DNA of 64,000 bases, taken from Tropicimonas sediminicola (GTDB lineage Bacteria; Pseudomonadota; Alphaproteobacteria; Rhodobacterales; Rhodobacteraceae). The notes below the pieces were generated by a model. That model had not been told where the DNA came from. It saw only the letters and a program-made list of their open reading frames with translations, and made no database searches. Made by a program: the position numbers and the translations under genes. The DNA is taken from the NCBI RefSeq assembly GCF_900188335.1, contig NZ_FZOY01000003.1:1-64000 (forward strand). Reading direction: 5' to 3'. Positions within the stretch are counted from its first letter, which is position 1, and each line of letters opens with the position of its first letter. This document shows positions 51,178 to 54,300 of the stretch, piece after piece.

Positions 51178-51591
51178 ATGAGAGTACTGGTTGTCCAGGA
51201 CGACCCGAACGTCCAGTCTCTTTGGTCAGGAATCCTGGAGGAGTCCGGACACGAGGTCGTTTTGGTCGAGACCGAATCCGCCGCTCTGAAAACGCTTCAG
51301 ACAAGCGCCTACGACCTCGTCCTGCTGGACCTTTGCCTGAACGGCCGCGATGCGCTTGCCGTCACGACCTTCGCGACCTATCGCAATCCGTCCTGCAAGG
51401 TGGTCGTGGTCTCCGGCTCGGCGGTCTTCTCGCAGAAGAAGCTCTTCGCCATGTCGCCGGCGGTGGCCGCCGCGCTGCGCAAGCCGGTGGATATCGAGGA
51501 TCTTGTTGCTGTATGCGACCGGGTGCACCGGAACGAGCGCAGCCCCGCGGTTCCGGTCATGGCGTCCAGCGACATCGAATTCCGGCCCTGA
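51178..51591 (+). CDS. Stand-alone receiver-domain protein
   Basis: A 137-residue protein with a CheY-like receiver and no output domain. Acidic residues QDD near the start, the phosphorylatable Asp in LVLLDLCLNG, Ser/Thr position in VVSGSAV and the conserved Lys in ALRKPVD are present. It could relay phosphate or bind a partner. It lies 73 bp after the helicase and upstream of the DUF1127 block, with no histidine kinase nearby. Confidence 0.85.
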   Translation: MRVLVVQDDPNVQSLWSGILEESGHEVVLVETESAALKTLQTSAYDLVLLDLCLNGRDALAVTTFATYRNPSCKVVVVSGSAVFSQKKLFAMSPAVAAALRKPVDIEDLVAVCDRVHRNERSPAVPVMASSDIEFRP

Positions 51592-51664: not shown

Positions 51665-51737
51665 AAAAAAGGAACGGCCGCGCCAGGGAGGATGGCGCGG
51701 CCGGTAAACCGGGACAGCAGGGAGGAGGAAGCTGCCC
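51665..51737 (-). ncRNA. Cuckoo (CcsR-type) sRNA downstream of the first DUF1127 gene
   Basis: Two hairpins on the minus strand. Stem GGGCAGC/GCTGTCCC encloses TTCCTCCTCCCT (51711-51737), then GGCCGCGCC/GGCGCGGCC encloses ATCCTCCCT (51676-51702), with a T-run at 51665-51670 acting as terminator. Twin hairpins exposing CUCCUCCC define the cuckoo RNA family of Rhodobacterales and Rhizobiales. It starts 22 bp after the DUF1127 stop. Confidence 0.85.
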
Positions 51738-51759
51738 CAGAAAGGGAATGCTGTGCGTA

Positions 51760-51978
51760 TCAGGCCATTTCGGCGGCCTGGCGAGCCAGGTCGCGCAGGC
51801 TGGCGCTGCTGATGCCAAGGTCGTTCAGCTCACGCTCGGACATCGACTGCAGCTCGCCAAGCGTGCGGCGATAGACTTCGCGGCGGCGGGCGGCTTCGCG
51901 GTACTCGGCGATGCGGGCGTTGATCCAGCGGGACAGGCCGTTGGGGCGAACTTGGGCGGCGGTGTTGACGTAGGCCAT
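51760..51978 (-). CDS. DUF1127 small protein (1 of 4)
   Basis: A 72-residue arginine-rich protein. The N-terminus is variable (AYVNTAAQVRPNGLSRW), a helix AEYREAARRREVYRRTLGEL follows, and the DUF1127 core is MSERELNDLGISSASL. In R. sphaeroides the CcsR-linked member CcaF1 is an RNA-binding protein that affects sRNA maturation. One cuckoo RNA follows. The leader contains the GCGCTAAC word shared by all four DUF1127 genes here (52050-52057). Confidence 0.9.
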   Translation of the reverse strand: MAYVNTAAQVRPNGLSRWINARIAEYREAARRREVYRRTLGELQSMSERELNDLGISSASLRDLARQAAEMA

Positions 51979-52156
51979 CGAATGAAATCCTTTTCTGTAA
52001 CCGAGGACCCATTTCCCCGGCTCGGTCGGTGAGGCGCTGTGGGAGGGATGTTAGCGCTCTCTTCGACACTCAATCTAACGATTGGACCGGTATTCAGTAG
52101 CCCCAGTCTCGGAAGGCCCGCTATGCATTTGCTGCACATAGCCATGATGTTAGCGG

Positions 52157-52232
52157 CAAAAGAAAACGGCGGTGCCCTGGGAGGAAGGCACCGCCGTCAT
52201 GCTCGAAGAACCCGAGGGAGGAGGAACGGGTC
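52157..52232 (-). ncRNA. Cuckoo (CcsR-type) sRNA downstream of the second DUF1127 gene
   Basis: Hairpin GACCCG/CGGGTT with loop TTCCTCCTCCCT (52208-52232), then ACGGCGGTGCC/GGCACCGCCGT with loop TTCCTCCCAG (52166-52197), followed by TTTTCTTTTG as terminator. It begins 24 bp after the DUF1127 stop and ends just before the promoter region of the first DUF1127 gene. Confidence 0.85.
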
Positions 52233-52256
52233 TCCGAAATCCTGTCGTCCGCGCGA

Positions 52257-52469
52257 TTACTTCGCGTAGGCGGTTTCGCGTGCCACGCTGCGGATCATCG
52301 AGCGGCTCAGGCCGAGGTCGGCCAGGTGACGGTCGCTCAGCGAGCTCAGCTCGCGCACCGTCTGGCGGTACAGGCGATACTGGGCGAGACGGGTCCGGGC
52401 AGCGCCGAACACGCCGGTGAGAGCGGAGTTGCCATTGATGGCGGCGGAGGAGCGAATTGCGTTTTCCAT
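52257..52469 (-). CDS. DUF1127 small protein (2 of 4)
   Basis: A 70-residue protein with N-terminus ENAIRSSAAINGNSALTG, helix LAQYRLYRQTVRELSSL and core SDRHLADLGLSRSMIRSVA. The core is close to that of copy 4 (SDRDLRDLGLSRAMIRSVA), and both have the same TGCTGCTATGCAGCA palindrome upstream, so these two are probably the most recent duplicates. The start follows AGGAAACAGG. One cuckoo RNA follows. Confidence 0.9.
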   Translation of the reverse strand: MENAIRSSAAINGNSALTGVFGAARTRLAQYRLYRQTVRELSSLSDRHLADLGLSRSMIRSVARETAYAK

Positions 52470-52606
52470 TGTCCTGTTTCCTTTTTCGAGCCGGCCTGGA
52501 GCCGGAAATCCTGCTGTTTGCGTCCGGAGTTTCAGTGCTCCGTTAGCGCTATCTTGCTATCAAAAGTAATGCCTTGGCGCGCTGTTGCAACGGCCCGTTT
52601 GGTCAA

Positions 52607-52621
52607 TGCTGCTATGCAGCA
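52607..52621. promoter_or_regulatory. 15-bp palindrome upstream of DUF1127 copy 2
   Basis: TGCTGC-TAT-GCAGCA, identical to 54158-54172. It lies 58 bp from the leader word GCGCTAAC (52542-52549), nearly the same distance as at copy 4. The CTGC-N3-GCAG core resembles sites reported for the PHB regulator PhaR, which is only one possibility. Confidence 0.6.
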
Positions 52622-52672
52622 ATTGGAGGGCTGTTCCGCGGAGTGGCTGCAAAACGCGCAGCTTGGCACATG

Positions 52673-52701
52673 AAAAAGGCGGCGCTGAAACAGGCGCCGC
52701 C
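52673..52701 (-). terminator. Intrinsic terminator of DUF1127 copy 3
   Basis: On the minus strand GGCGGCGC and GCGCCGCC pair around an 8-base loop, then TTTTT. Here an ordinary terminator stands where the other three copies have cuckoo RNAs. Confidence 0.85.
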
Positions 52702-52723
52702 GTTTTGGTGGTCGGGCAAGGTT

Positions 52724-52939
52724 TCAGGCGGACCGGGATGCGGTGCGGGCGATCGCGGAGATGTCCGCGCGGTTGAAACCCAGGTCCGCCAGCTCGCGGT
52801 CGGTCAACTCCTTCAGTTCGCCCGTGGTGCGGAGATAGCTGGCCTGCCGGCGGTAGAGCGCCTTCAGGCCGTCGAGGGCGGAAGCAAGAAACGTCCGGCT
52901 GGCGCCGGCGGCGATGGGGGAGTTTGCAGCGTAGTCCAT
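52724..52939 (-). CDS. DUF1127 small protein (3 of 4)
   Basis: A 71-residue protein starting MDYAANSPIAAGASRTF, with helix LKALYRRQASYLRTTGEL and core LTDRELADLGFNRADISAIA. It is the most divergent core of the four. The ATG at 52939 follows GAAGGATC; the longer frame reading into the sRNA array is not protein-like. No cuckoo RNA follows. The promoter region resembles that of copy 1 (GTGCAG-AA-GCAT-GCGGGC). Confidence 0.88.
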   Translation of the reverse strand: MDYAANSPIAAGASRTFLASALDGLKALYRRQASYLRTTGELKELTDRELADLGFNRADISAIARTASRSA

Positions 52940-53120
52940 TCGGTCGATCCTTCGTCGGATCCCGGACCCCTGTCCGGGACTTCCAAGAGGGCGCCGGGGG
53001 AGGGAAGTGTTAGCGCTCTCTTGTGCCCCAGAGATAGCCATCGCCGCGCCGTGGACAATTCCACAAACAGGTATGCCCGCCATGCGCTTTCTGCACGAAG
53101 GGAGCGTCGTTCCGGTGCCG

Positions 53121-53200
53121 GGAAAGAAAAAGGCGGCGACACCAGGGAGGAGGAAGGTGTCGCCGCCGAAATACAGACAACCCAGGGAGGAGGACGGGTT
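53121..53200 (-). ncRNA. Cuckoo sRNA, array unit 6 (last, with terminator)
   Basis: Hairpin AACCCGTCC-loop-GGGTT (53179-53200) and hairpin GGCGGCGACACC/GGTGTCGCCGCC with loop TTCCTCCTCCCT (53132-53166). It is followed by TTTTTCTTTCC, an intrinsic terminator that ends the whole array transcript. Confidence 0.88.
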
Positions 53201-53243
53201 CTCTGATCTCATGTCTGCCGGCCTTGGCCGGCGGTGTAGGGGT

Positions 53244-53312
53244 GGCGACGACACCAGGGAGGAGGGAGGTGTCGCCGCCGAAATACAGACAACCCAGGGA
53301 GGAGGACGGGTT
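53244..53312 (-). ncRNA. Cuckoo sRNA, array unit 5
   Basis: Twin hairpins at 53291-53312 and 53244-53279 with CCTCCTCCC loops. It belongs to the group of four near-identical ~112-bp units; one loop base differs (CTCCCTCCTCCC instead of TTCC). Confidence 0.88.
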
Positions 53313-53356
53313 CTCTGATCTCATGTCTGCCGACCTTGGCCGGCGGTGTAAGGGGT

Positions 53357-53425
53357 GGCGACGACACCAGGGAGGAGGAAGGTGTCGCCGCCGAAATACA
53401 GACAACCCAGGGAGGAGGACGGGTT
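53357..53425 (-). ncRNA. Cuckoo sRNA, array unit 4
   Basis: Hairpins at 53404-53425 and 53357-53392, almost the same as units 3, 5 and 6. Between units a GCCGGC/GCCGGC-type hairpin recurs and may guide processing into single RNAs. Confidence 0.88.
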
Positions 53426-53468
53426 CTCTGATCTCATGTCTGCCGGCCTTGGCCGACGGTGTAGGGGT

Positions 53469-53537
53469 GGCGACGACACCAGGGAGGAGGAAGGTGTCGC
53501 CGCCGAAATACAGACAACCCAGGGAGGAGGACGGGTT
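53469..53537 (-). ncRNA. Cuckoo sRNA, array unit 3
   Basis: Hairpins at 53516-53537 and 53469-53504 with CTCCTCCC loops and linker TGTCTGTATTTCGGC. Offset to unit 4 is exactly 112 bp for both hairpins. Confidence 0.88.
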
Positions 53538-53579
53538 CTCTGATCTCATGTCTGCCGGCCTTGGCCGGCGGTGTAGGGG

Positions 53580-53650
53580 GGCGGCGCACCAGGGAGGAGG
53601 AGGGTGCTGCCGCCGAAACCGAACCCAGGGAGGAGGAGAGGGCTGGCTTC
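53580..53650 (-). ncRNA. Cuckoo sRNA, array unit 2 (divergent)
   Basis: Hairpin GAAGCC-CCC/GGG-GGTTTC around TCTCCTCCTCCCT (53615-53650), with an internal loop, and GGCGGC-GCACC around TCCTCCTCCCT (53580-53614). Stems differ from units 3-6 but pair through compensating changes while the loops stay fixed. Confidence 0.82.
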
Positions 53651-53680
53651 GTATGTCTGCCCTTTCGGGCGGTGTTCTGT

Positions 53681-53747
53681 GGCGGTGACACCAGGGAGGA
53701 GGAGAGGTGTCACCGCCGATCAGATAACCCAGGGAGGAGGACGGGTT
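53681..53747 (-). ncRNA. Cuckoo sRNA, array unit 1 (divergent)
   Basis: Hairpin AACCCGTCCTCCTCCCTGGG-type at 53726-53747 and a 12-bp stem GGCGGTGACACC/GGTGTCACCGCC around CTCCTCCTCCCT (53681-53717). It lies 20 bp after the stop of DUF1127 copy 4, so it is transcribed from that gene's promoter. Confidence 0.86.
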
Positions 53748-53767
53748 TCTGAACTCTGTATCTCTTG

Positions 53768-53977
53768 TCAGGCCGCCTGCGCGGCCTCCTTCGCAACCGA
53801 CCGGATCATCGCACGGCTCAGGCCGAGGTCCCGCAGGTCCCTGTCGGACAAAGCCGAGAGGCTGCGAACCGTCTGGTGGTAGACACGAGCTTGCGCGATG
53901 CGGGCGCGGACGCTGTCGATCAGCGAAAGAGCGCGGTTCTGGCCCAGGCCGAAGTCTGCGTTGTGCGTCGTCGTCAT
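53768..53977 (-). CDS. DUF1127 small protein (4 of 4), head of the sRNA array
   Basis: A 69-residue protein: TTTHNADFGLGQNRALSL, helix RARIAQARVYHQTVRSLSAL, core SDRDLRDLGLSRAMIRSVAKEA. By position it is the counterpart of R. sphaeroides CcaF1 (RSP_6037), which precedes CcsR1-4. The ATG at 53977 follows AGGAAAC; a longer frame upstream is leader sequence. Its leader and promoter hold GCGCTAAC (54092-54099), a likely -10 TATCTT with -35 TTGCGC at 16-bp spacing, and the 15-bp palindrome. Confidence 0.92.
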   Translation of the reverse strand: MTTTHNADFGLGQNRALSLIDSVRARIAQARVYHQTVRSLSALSDRDLRDLGLSRAMIRSVAKEAAQAA

Positions 53978-54157
53978 CACGCGTTTCCTACTCGAGTCGC
54001 CGGGCGTGGCCCGATCCGTATGCCGCCGGGATAAGACCCGATCTTGCTGTTTCGTTTCCTGTGAGCGCTGCTTCCGTCCGTCGAAGCTTGTGTTAGCGCC
54101 CTCGTTGAAACCAAAGATAGCTACCAATCGTGGTTGCGCAATCAGTCGAAACCTCAA

Positions 54158-54172
54158 TGCTGCTATGCAGCA
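54158..54172. promoter_or_regulatory. 15-bp palindrome upstream of DUF1127 copy 4
   Basis: TGCTGC-TAT-GCAGCA, the same word as at 52607-52621 and at the same distance (59 bp) from the GCGCTAAC leader word. It lies just upstream of the predicted -35 box and probably binds a regulator. Confidence 0.6.
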
Positions 54173-54300
54173 ATTGCATGTGTCCTGCTGACCTATTTTC
54201 GGGCGATTTGCACATTACGTGAGCGTAAATGTAAGGCGGGTTGCGTCCGGCGCGTGGGGGTATACCTAGAATCCGGAAATTACGGCTGATGGAGTGGGCG

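Follow-up and report, generated by a model that had tools for sequence, protein, structure and literature searches.

A cuckoo-RNA-type locus with four DUF1127 genes in Tropicimonas sediminicola and a candidate LsrB-like regulator of its promoters

RNAs whose hairpins carry an anti-Shine-Dalgarno (aSD) loop have been described in two settings, as RpoH-controlled stress RNAs (CcsR or cuckoo RNAs) in Rhodobacter and as an LsrB-controlled nitrogen-stress RNA (NfeR1) in rhizobia. The first kind is represented by ccaF1 (RSP_6037)-CcsR1-4 of Rhodobacter sphaeroides, the 'CIN1' locus of the cuckoo RNA family, in which one DUF1127 gene of about 70 amino acids is followed on the same strand by four units with aSD-loop hairpins, and for which RNase E processing modulated by CcaF1 is described (PMC10253847, PMC8625941, PMC8307010). 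Here we report on a locus of this kind in the first 64,000 nucleotides of contig NZ_FZOY01000003.1 of Tropicimonas sediminicola, a member of the Rhodobacteraceae (the window, meaning this whole stretch of DNA), where four DUF1127 genes and eight twin-hairpin units lie on the minus strand, reading from 54.2 down to 51.6 kb. Loci of this kind are already known; it is the switch design shared by all four genes that points to a particular regulator.

The second kind comprises the NfeR1/alpha-r14, SmelA075 and SmelA099 RNAs of Sinorhizobium meliloti, which resemble the window units in having several CCUCCUCCC-loop hairpins on variable stems (PMC10746234, PMC3927594). The aSD loops of NfeR1 are redundant and pair with the translation start of ntrB, thereby silencing it, and its promoter, PnfeR1, has at -72 to -60 a TGCA-N6-GCAT box that is bound by the LysR-type protein LsrB and required for activity, as reported from pull-down, gel shift and reporter mutants (PMC10746234). 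The same box is found in the window. NfeR1 is nevertheless a stand-alone RNA of three hairpins, whereas the window units have two and lie behind DUF1127 genes.

What the sequence establishes are the genes, the units, their covarying stems and fixed loops, the promoter architecture shared by the four genes and its conservation. We consider it on balance probable, if only modestly so, that this is a cuckoo-RNA (CIN1/CcsR-type) locus in which an LsrB-like activator drives DUF1127-aSD transcripts, which are cut by RNase E and whose loops pair with Shine-Dalgarno (SD) sites of mRNAs. If this is true, an LsrB-type box pair conserved at Rhodobacteraceae loci would join the CcsR and NfeR1 literatures and enlarge the range reported for LsrB.

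Four DUF1127 genes and eight twin-hairpin units

All four genes, called by a match to Pfam family PF06568 above the family cut-off, lie on one strand (the proteins of copies 4 and 2 share 52% identity), and they are followed by six units in tandem behind copy 4 (A1-A6, 53752-53131), one behind copy 2 and one behind copy 1, much as the original prediction, a note made from the sequence alone, had described. That prediction had assigned the locus to the ccaF1-CcsR kind, and the assignment holds: as in the CIN1 locus, there are serial CCUCCUCCC-type loops, covarying stems and linked upstream DUF1127 genes on the same strand. It is, however, a variant arrangement, with four DUF1127 genes and 6+1+1 units instead of one and four, and with a promoter-like region of its own for each gene.

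The loops are of one kind, again as predicted. CTCCTCCC is present in 14 of 16, and the other two, which belong to the second, terminator-like hairpin of either single unit, have TCCTCCC only. Across the window CTCCTCCC occurs 15 times, 14 of them in the locus, against 4.1 expected from shuffles (maximum 11 in 100). TGGATCACCTCCTTTC is found once in the genome, and we take this motif, with its one site, to be the 3' end of the host's 16S rRNA, so that the loops contain the CCTCCT of the 16S 3' end. An aSD-like loop can pair with SD sites of mRNAs and not with the ribosome's own aSD, which is at odds with the 'sponge' that had been proposed.

Several of these hairpins resemble transcript ends. 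The second hairpin of the copy 2 unit (52165-52198), with TTCCTCCC in its loop, is also terminator-like in a terminator scan; that of the copy 1 unit (51675-51703), with ATCCTCCC in its loop, is followed by a T run; and that of A6, which has TTTTTCTTT directly 3' of it, may be the transcript end, its loop being too long for the scan used. Copy 3 has a plain terminator instead (Table 1), which may reflect loss of an aSD hairpin, since in the congener G001 an aSD-loop hairpin (L059, 3380-3414) comes after the array-adjoining DUF1127 gene, a comparison that rests on gene order. Units A3-A6 are 96-100% identical to one another and repeat with a period of 112-113 bp, so they are recent tandem copies and part of the array is young; the remaining unit pairs share 45-81% identity.

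When the eight units are used to build a covariance model (R1), each of them scores E 2.8e-9 or better, as its construction entails, and the next-best match in the 5.17-Mb genome, among 150 candidates scored, is a single aSD hairpin at E 0.01. No Rfam family matches the locus at gathering level; the four tRNAs that Rfam does find in the window lie elsewhere. Across 33 loci of relatives, chosen because they hold arrays, R1 has 160 matches at E 0.01 or better. Covariation was assessed on 142 distinct rows among the best 150, all from relatives and with the window units excluded: 95.4% of the pairing cells pair against 76.1% in shuffles (none of 500 reaches the observed value), and changes on both sides are seen in 17 of 17 pairs against 12.9 in shuffles, in an alignment that was fitted to the model and hence is biased towards the R1 structure. 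Pairing falls to 35-53% when partners are shifted by 1-3 columns. The stems thus appear to covary, their sequence changing while pairing is kept. The loop sequence stays constant: full CCTCCTCCC is present in 445 of the 516 hairpins detected near DUF1127 genes (CCTCC being required for detection).

R1 matches were found in 59 of 120 genomes, the own genome included. All 59 belong to the 72 genomes of the same family and none to the 48 outside it; R1, being derived from the own genome, would overlook distant forms. The nine genomes of the window's genus all match, some at more than one locus, with 5-9 matches genome-wide in each of the eight congeners and eight in the own genome. The fetched loci hold 2-6 DUF1127 hits in each of the eight congeners, whereas every one of the 43 array loci from other genera (many of them Paracoccus) has a single hit, so that the extra DUF1127 copies are the only feature that looks typical of the window's genus. 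Single arrays of varying length behind one DUF1127 gene occur elsewhere, with seven R1 matches in Paracoccus yeei (L087), eight in the Cereibacter-like G058 (L073; the last one weak), and eight aSD hairpins, or four twin units, in the Cereibacter johrii relative (L086; with a weak fifth R1 match at E 0.0085). Because congeners carry 5-9 matches and other genera have longer single arrays (7-8 versus six in tandem here), tandem enlargement is not confined to this strain, contrary to the original prediction. The multi-promoter form of the window's genus offers a natural dosage series for how many aSD copies the cell tolerates.

Promoter architecture in the window and in the family

Upstream of all four DUF1127 genes (promoters P1-P4 of copies 1-4) there is a TGCA-N6-GCAT box (box A), exact in three and with one mismatch in P2, and its start is followed by GCGCTAAC at 79 bp in P1, P3 and P4 and at 78 bp in P2. 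If the -10 is the conserved TANNTT, from which start sites were derived, box A lies at about -72 to -60, and this distance would match that of the published LsrB site; GCGCTAAC would lie just after the start, at about +7. Since all four promoters share both elements at 78-79 bp, a shared input seems more likely than the several different stress inputs that had been suggested for them.

The combination is rare elsewhere. GCGCTAA has five sites on both strands of the 64-kb window, of which the four in the locus have box A and the fifth does not. Genome-wide, an exact box A followed by GCGCTAAC (gap 40-70) occurs four times (reversed control 0), at P1, P3 and P4 and at one site outside the window, which precedes a DUF1127-type gene scoring 21.5 bits against a Pfam cut-off of 23.3. 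Box plus GCGCTAAC at the window spacing was found in three of 394 family genomes (control 0), namely the only two genomes of the window's genus in that draw and G346. As a LacI-type palindrome, TGTTAGCGCTAACA with up to two mismatches, GCGCTAAC was rejected: its 12 sites per strand are below the 17 of the reversed control and so give no sign of a LacI-type regulon. A standard sigma-70 scan gave no hits in the locus.

Outside the window's genus, box A is followed by a second box (box B) 39-40 bp lower and then by a -10-like CCATCTT or CATGTT. When box pairs with at most one mismatch were collected from the array loci outside the genus with no spacing imposed, a distance of 39 or 40 bp occurred 31 times and the next most frequent distance five times. 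Allowing two mismatches together, both boxes are present in 37 of the 43 array loci (the others being L075, L087, L098, L112, L116 and L120), among them that of the C. johrii relative L086, with one mismatch in box B, and in none of 13 DUF1127 genes without aSD arrays. In the window's genus box B appears to have decayed and GCGCTAAC to have been added, a further difference from ccaF1-CcsR1-4.

An exact tandem box occurs in 137 of the 394 family genomes (reversed control 0 of 394), at one site per genome except for two in G012, and box B reads TTGTGCA in all listed matches but four by eye (two in G012, one in G154 and one in the own genome). Of these sites, 30 had their loci fetched: a DUF1127 gene lies within 450 nt in 28, and one or more aSD hairpins lie within 1500 nt in 29, the remaining locus, L171, stopping at a contig end. 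In L170 and L178 there is no DUF1127 gene, and the tandem-box promoter runs straight into a predicted stand-alone twin aSD hairpin RNA, a form that resembles rhizobial NfeR1; the promoter thus goes with the RNA no less than with the protein. The own genome has a single exact tandem-box site, outside the window (L029, G000:C25:470270 onward), where a divergent DUF1127-type gene is preceded by both exact boxes, 40 bp apart, and by GCGCTAAC.

A candidate LsrB-like regulator, its proposed role and rival explanations

An LsrB query from Ferirhizobium, where the gene adjoins trxB, finds one clear relative in each of 10 Rhodobacteraceae genomes (40-42% identical, the next LysR proteins being at about 30%), and one match at E 1e-70 or better in each of 384 of the 394 family genomes; the gene of the own genome is listed in Table 1. 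In a tree of 21 rows, and hence of limited sampling, these proteins form a joint clade with Rhizobiales LsrB against the next LysR group (support 98/96), and in five Rhodobacteraceae rows the helix-turn-helix (HTH) is 75-77% identical to that of Rhizobiales LsrB. NCBIfam has no equivalog for the protein (best 149.5 bits, cut-off 470). On the basis of a tree with three LsrB and nine OxyR proteins, LsrB has been called unique to Rhizobiales (PMC11975290, 2025), a view with which its occurrence in 384 of 394 family genomes disagrees; VtlR/LsrB is elsewhere described as present in many Alphaproteobacteria, and in Agrobacterium tumefaciens VtlR directly activates the small RNA AbcR1 and a small protein (PMC7486931). 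Titles and the starts of abstracts revealed no LysR control of DUF1127/CcsR loci in Rhodobacteraceae, although the original cuckoo RNA, CcaF1 and CcsR papers may refer to such motifs; the term 'LysR' does not occur in PMC8307010, PMC8625941 or PMC10673084.

We propose that (i) a LysR-type activator orthologous to LsrB would bind TGCA-N6-GCAT about 65 bp before the predicted start and switch on all four promoters together, (ii) GCGCTAAC, a second element typical of the window's genus, would modulate them from just downstream of that start, (iii) RNase E would cut the transcripts and free the units, while the DUF1127 (CcaF1-like) protein would influence maturation as CcaF1 does in R. sphaeroides, and (iv) the freed aSD loops would pair with G-rich SD regions of selected mRNAs and block their translation, near-identical units raising the dose of one RNA. 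That unit number serves as dose control is plausible by analogy, because the loops of NfeR1 are redundant. DUF1127 proteins may also act through proteins, if the small DUF1127 proteins of A. tumefaciens, which bind PhoR and which R. sphaeroides CcaF1 can replace (PMC12501420), are a guide. More tentatively, and here we are almost evenly divided with a slight lean towards doubt, NfeR1 of Rhizobiales and the CcsR/cuckoo aSD RNAs of Rhodobacteraceae would be one ancient LsrB circuit, acting via TGCA-N6-GCAT some 65 bp upstream of the start. In this reading much of the Rhodobacteraceae would use two boxes 39-40 bp apart, with the aSD locus as main exact tandem-box site; in the window's genus the second box would have disappeared, GCGCTAAC would have been acquired at a constant spacing, and multiplication of the unit would have placed four promoters under a single command.

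Several observations weigh against LsrB control. The LsrB-like gene is present in 135 of the 137 tandem-box genomes (G035 and G223 have no match), but a gene that nearly every genome of the family carries has little discriminating power, and the co-occurrence is uninformative. The exact tandem box is absent from 257 of the 394 family genomes, and both boxes, with two mismatches together, are found in none of 35 DUF1127 upstream regions of the window's genus, which would follow from the apparent decay of box B there. The VtlR consensus of Brucella/Agrobacterium, GCAT-N3-TG-N3-T, is found in none of the four window promoters and in eight of 64 family promoters. The region upstream of the own LsrB-like gene has no box, even with one mismatch allowed (among 10 Rhodobacteraceae, one, L138, has an exact box there). 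Unlike in Ferirhizobium, the gene does not adjoin trxB: a position beside trxB in the own genome was rejected, as no LysR open reading frame (ORF) was seen by eye in the 3.9-kb trxB locus, and its neighbours look, again by eye, like murein transglycosylase and acyltransferase genes. At two cysteine columns of the Ferirhizobium protein, which we equate with the C144/C273 pair of A. tumefaciens, all ten sequences from Rhodobacteraceae have V and A; these cysteines are also missing from the three other Rhizobiales sequences. Lastly, ccaF1-CcsR of R. sphaeroides has been described with an RpoHI/RpoHII promoter (PMC10253847, PMC8307010).

This last point is the starting one for the view that the heat-shock sigma factors RpoHI/RpoHII alone are in control and that the boxes are accessory or vestigial. 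Many -10s in the family, as deduced from sequence, read CCATCTT or CTATCTT, and a loose TTG-N18-20-[CT]AT.T pattern is present in 55 of 64 family promoters and in two of four in the window (P3 and P4), but a strict CTTG-N16-19-C[CT]AT pattern is found in only one of the 64 and in none of the four, and vestigial boxes sit badly with a spacing of 39-40 bp that recurs without having been imposed; we regard this view as quite unlikely. The boxes might instead be real operators of another LysR-type (or other) protein, which we also think unlikely, if a serious contender: T-N11-A is a generic box form among LysR regulators (PMC10746234), the genome is rich in LysR genes (LsrB alone has 10 matches at E 1e-25 or better), and a LysR gene (L006, G000:C17:537734) is divergent from an orphan DUF1127 gene. 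That protein is the weaker candidate, since its HTH is 46% identical to that of LsrB and no box with at most one mismatch is present in its intergenic region, and the exact box and its apparent position match the published LsrB site. By sequence, the closest solved relative of the L006 protein is LrhA.

The remaining alternatives concern the hairpins and the history of the locus. That the hairpins are mainly elements of processing, stability or termination, or holders of proteins (CcaF1-like, Hfq), with no mRNA pairing, is improbable in our opinion: a T-rich stretch does lie behind the last hairpin of three groups, and CcaF1 is described as binding RNA and affecting CcsR maturation, and CcsR as interacting with Hfq (PMC8307010), but the stems vary and covary around loops that stay fixed, a terminator has no need of a fixed loop, and the aSD loops of NfeR1 silence an mRNA through pairing (PMC10746234). 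A strain-specific enlargement acting as a dose-dependent sponge under several different stress promoters, as originally predicted, can appeal to the recent local expansion of A3-A6, yet the match counts of the congeners, the longer single arrays in other genera and the one architecture at all four promoters make it highly improbable. Control by an LsrB-like activator of a CcsR-type locus, with loops directed at mRNAs, is the reading we consider most likely.

Feature coordinates and further observations

Table 1. Features of the DUF1127/aSD locus (window coordinates) and the LsrB-like gene of the same genome
Feature	Position	Strand	Remarks
P4 box A TGCAATTGCTGCAT	54165..54178	-	LsrB-type box; centre predicted near -65
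P4 GCGCTAAC element	54092..54099	-	79 bp below box A start
DUF1127 copy 4	53768..53977	-	69 aa; PF06568 52 bits; heads six-unit array
aSD twin-hairpin unit A1	53681..53752	-	model R1, E 2.1e-12
aSD twin-hairpin unit A2	53579..53649	-	model R1, E 2.8e-9
aSD twin-hairpin unit A3	53468..53543	-	hairpin detection; repeat period 112-113
aSD twin-hairpin unit A4	53356..53431	-	hairpin detection; model R1
aSD twin-hairpin unit A5	53243..53318	-	hairpin detection; model R1
aSD twin-hairpin unit A6	53131..53206	-	hairpin detection; model R1
P3 box A TGCAGAAAGCGCAT	53082..53095	-	exact
P3 GCGCTAAC element	53009..53016	-	79 bp below box A start
DUF1127 copy 3	52724..52939	-	71 aa; Pfam
Plain intrinsic terminator of copy 3	52678..52701	-	terminator scan; loop TGTTTCA, no aSD sequence
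P2 box A TCCAATTGCTGCAT	52614..52627	-	1 mismatch
P2 GCGCTAAC element	52542..52549	-	78 bp below box A start
DUF1127 copy 2	52257..52469	-	70 aa; Pfam
Single aSD twin-hairpin unit behind copy 2	52164..52240	-	hairpin detection; model R1
P1 box A TGCAGCAAATGCAT	52123..52136	-	exact
P1 GCGCTAAC element	52050..52057	-	79 bp below box A start
DUF1127 copy 1	51760..51978	-	72 aa; Pfam
Single aSD twin-hairpin unit behind copy 1	51670..51742	-	hairpin detection; model R1
LsrB-like gene, own genome	C25:261043-261903		LsrB sequence match

A response-regulator receiver-domain gene on the plus strand (window 51178-51591) converges on the DUF1127/aSD locus. Elsewhere in the genome, an orphan DUF1127 gene (L008, G000:C17:755788) lies between TGCACGTGCAGCAT on its upstream side and GTTAGCGCTC, which is the element in opposite-strand orientation, below it; by eye, another small ORF similar to it follows, and no aSD hairpin was found at this locus. 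At L017 (G000:C17:491877-491945) a lone aSD-loop hairpin with a plain terminator after it lies directly behind a phasin-like gene (Phasin_2, E 6.6e-5, slightly under the cut-off) and before a polyhydroxybutyrate accumulation regulator gene, and is possibly an aSD RNA from a 3' untranslated region in polyhydroxyalkanoate metabolism.

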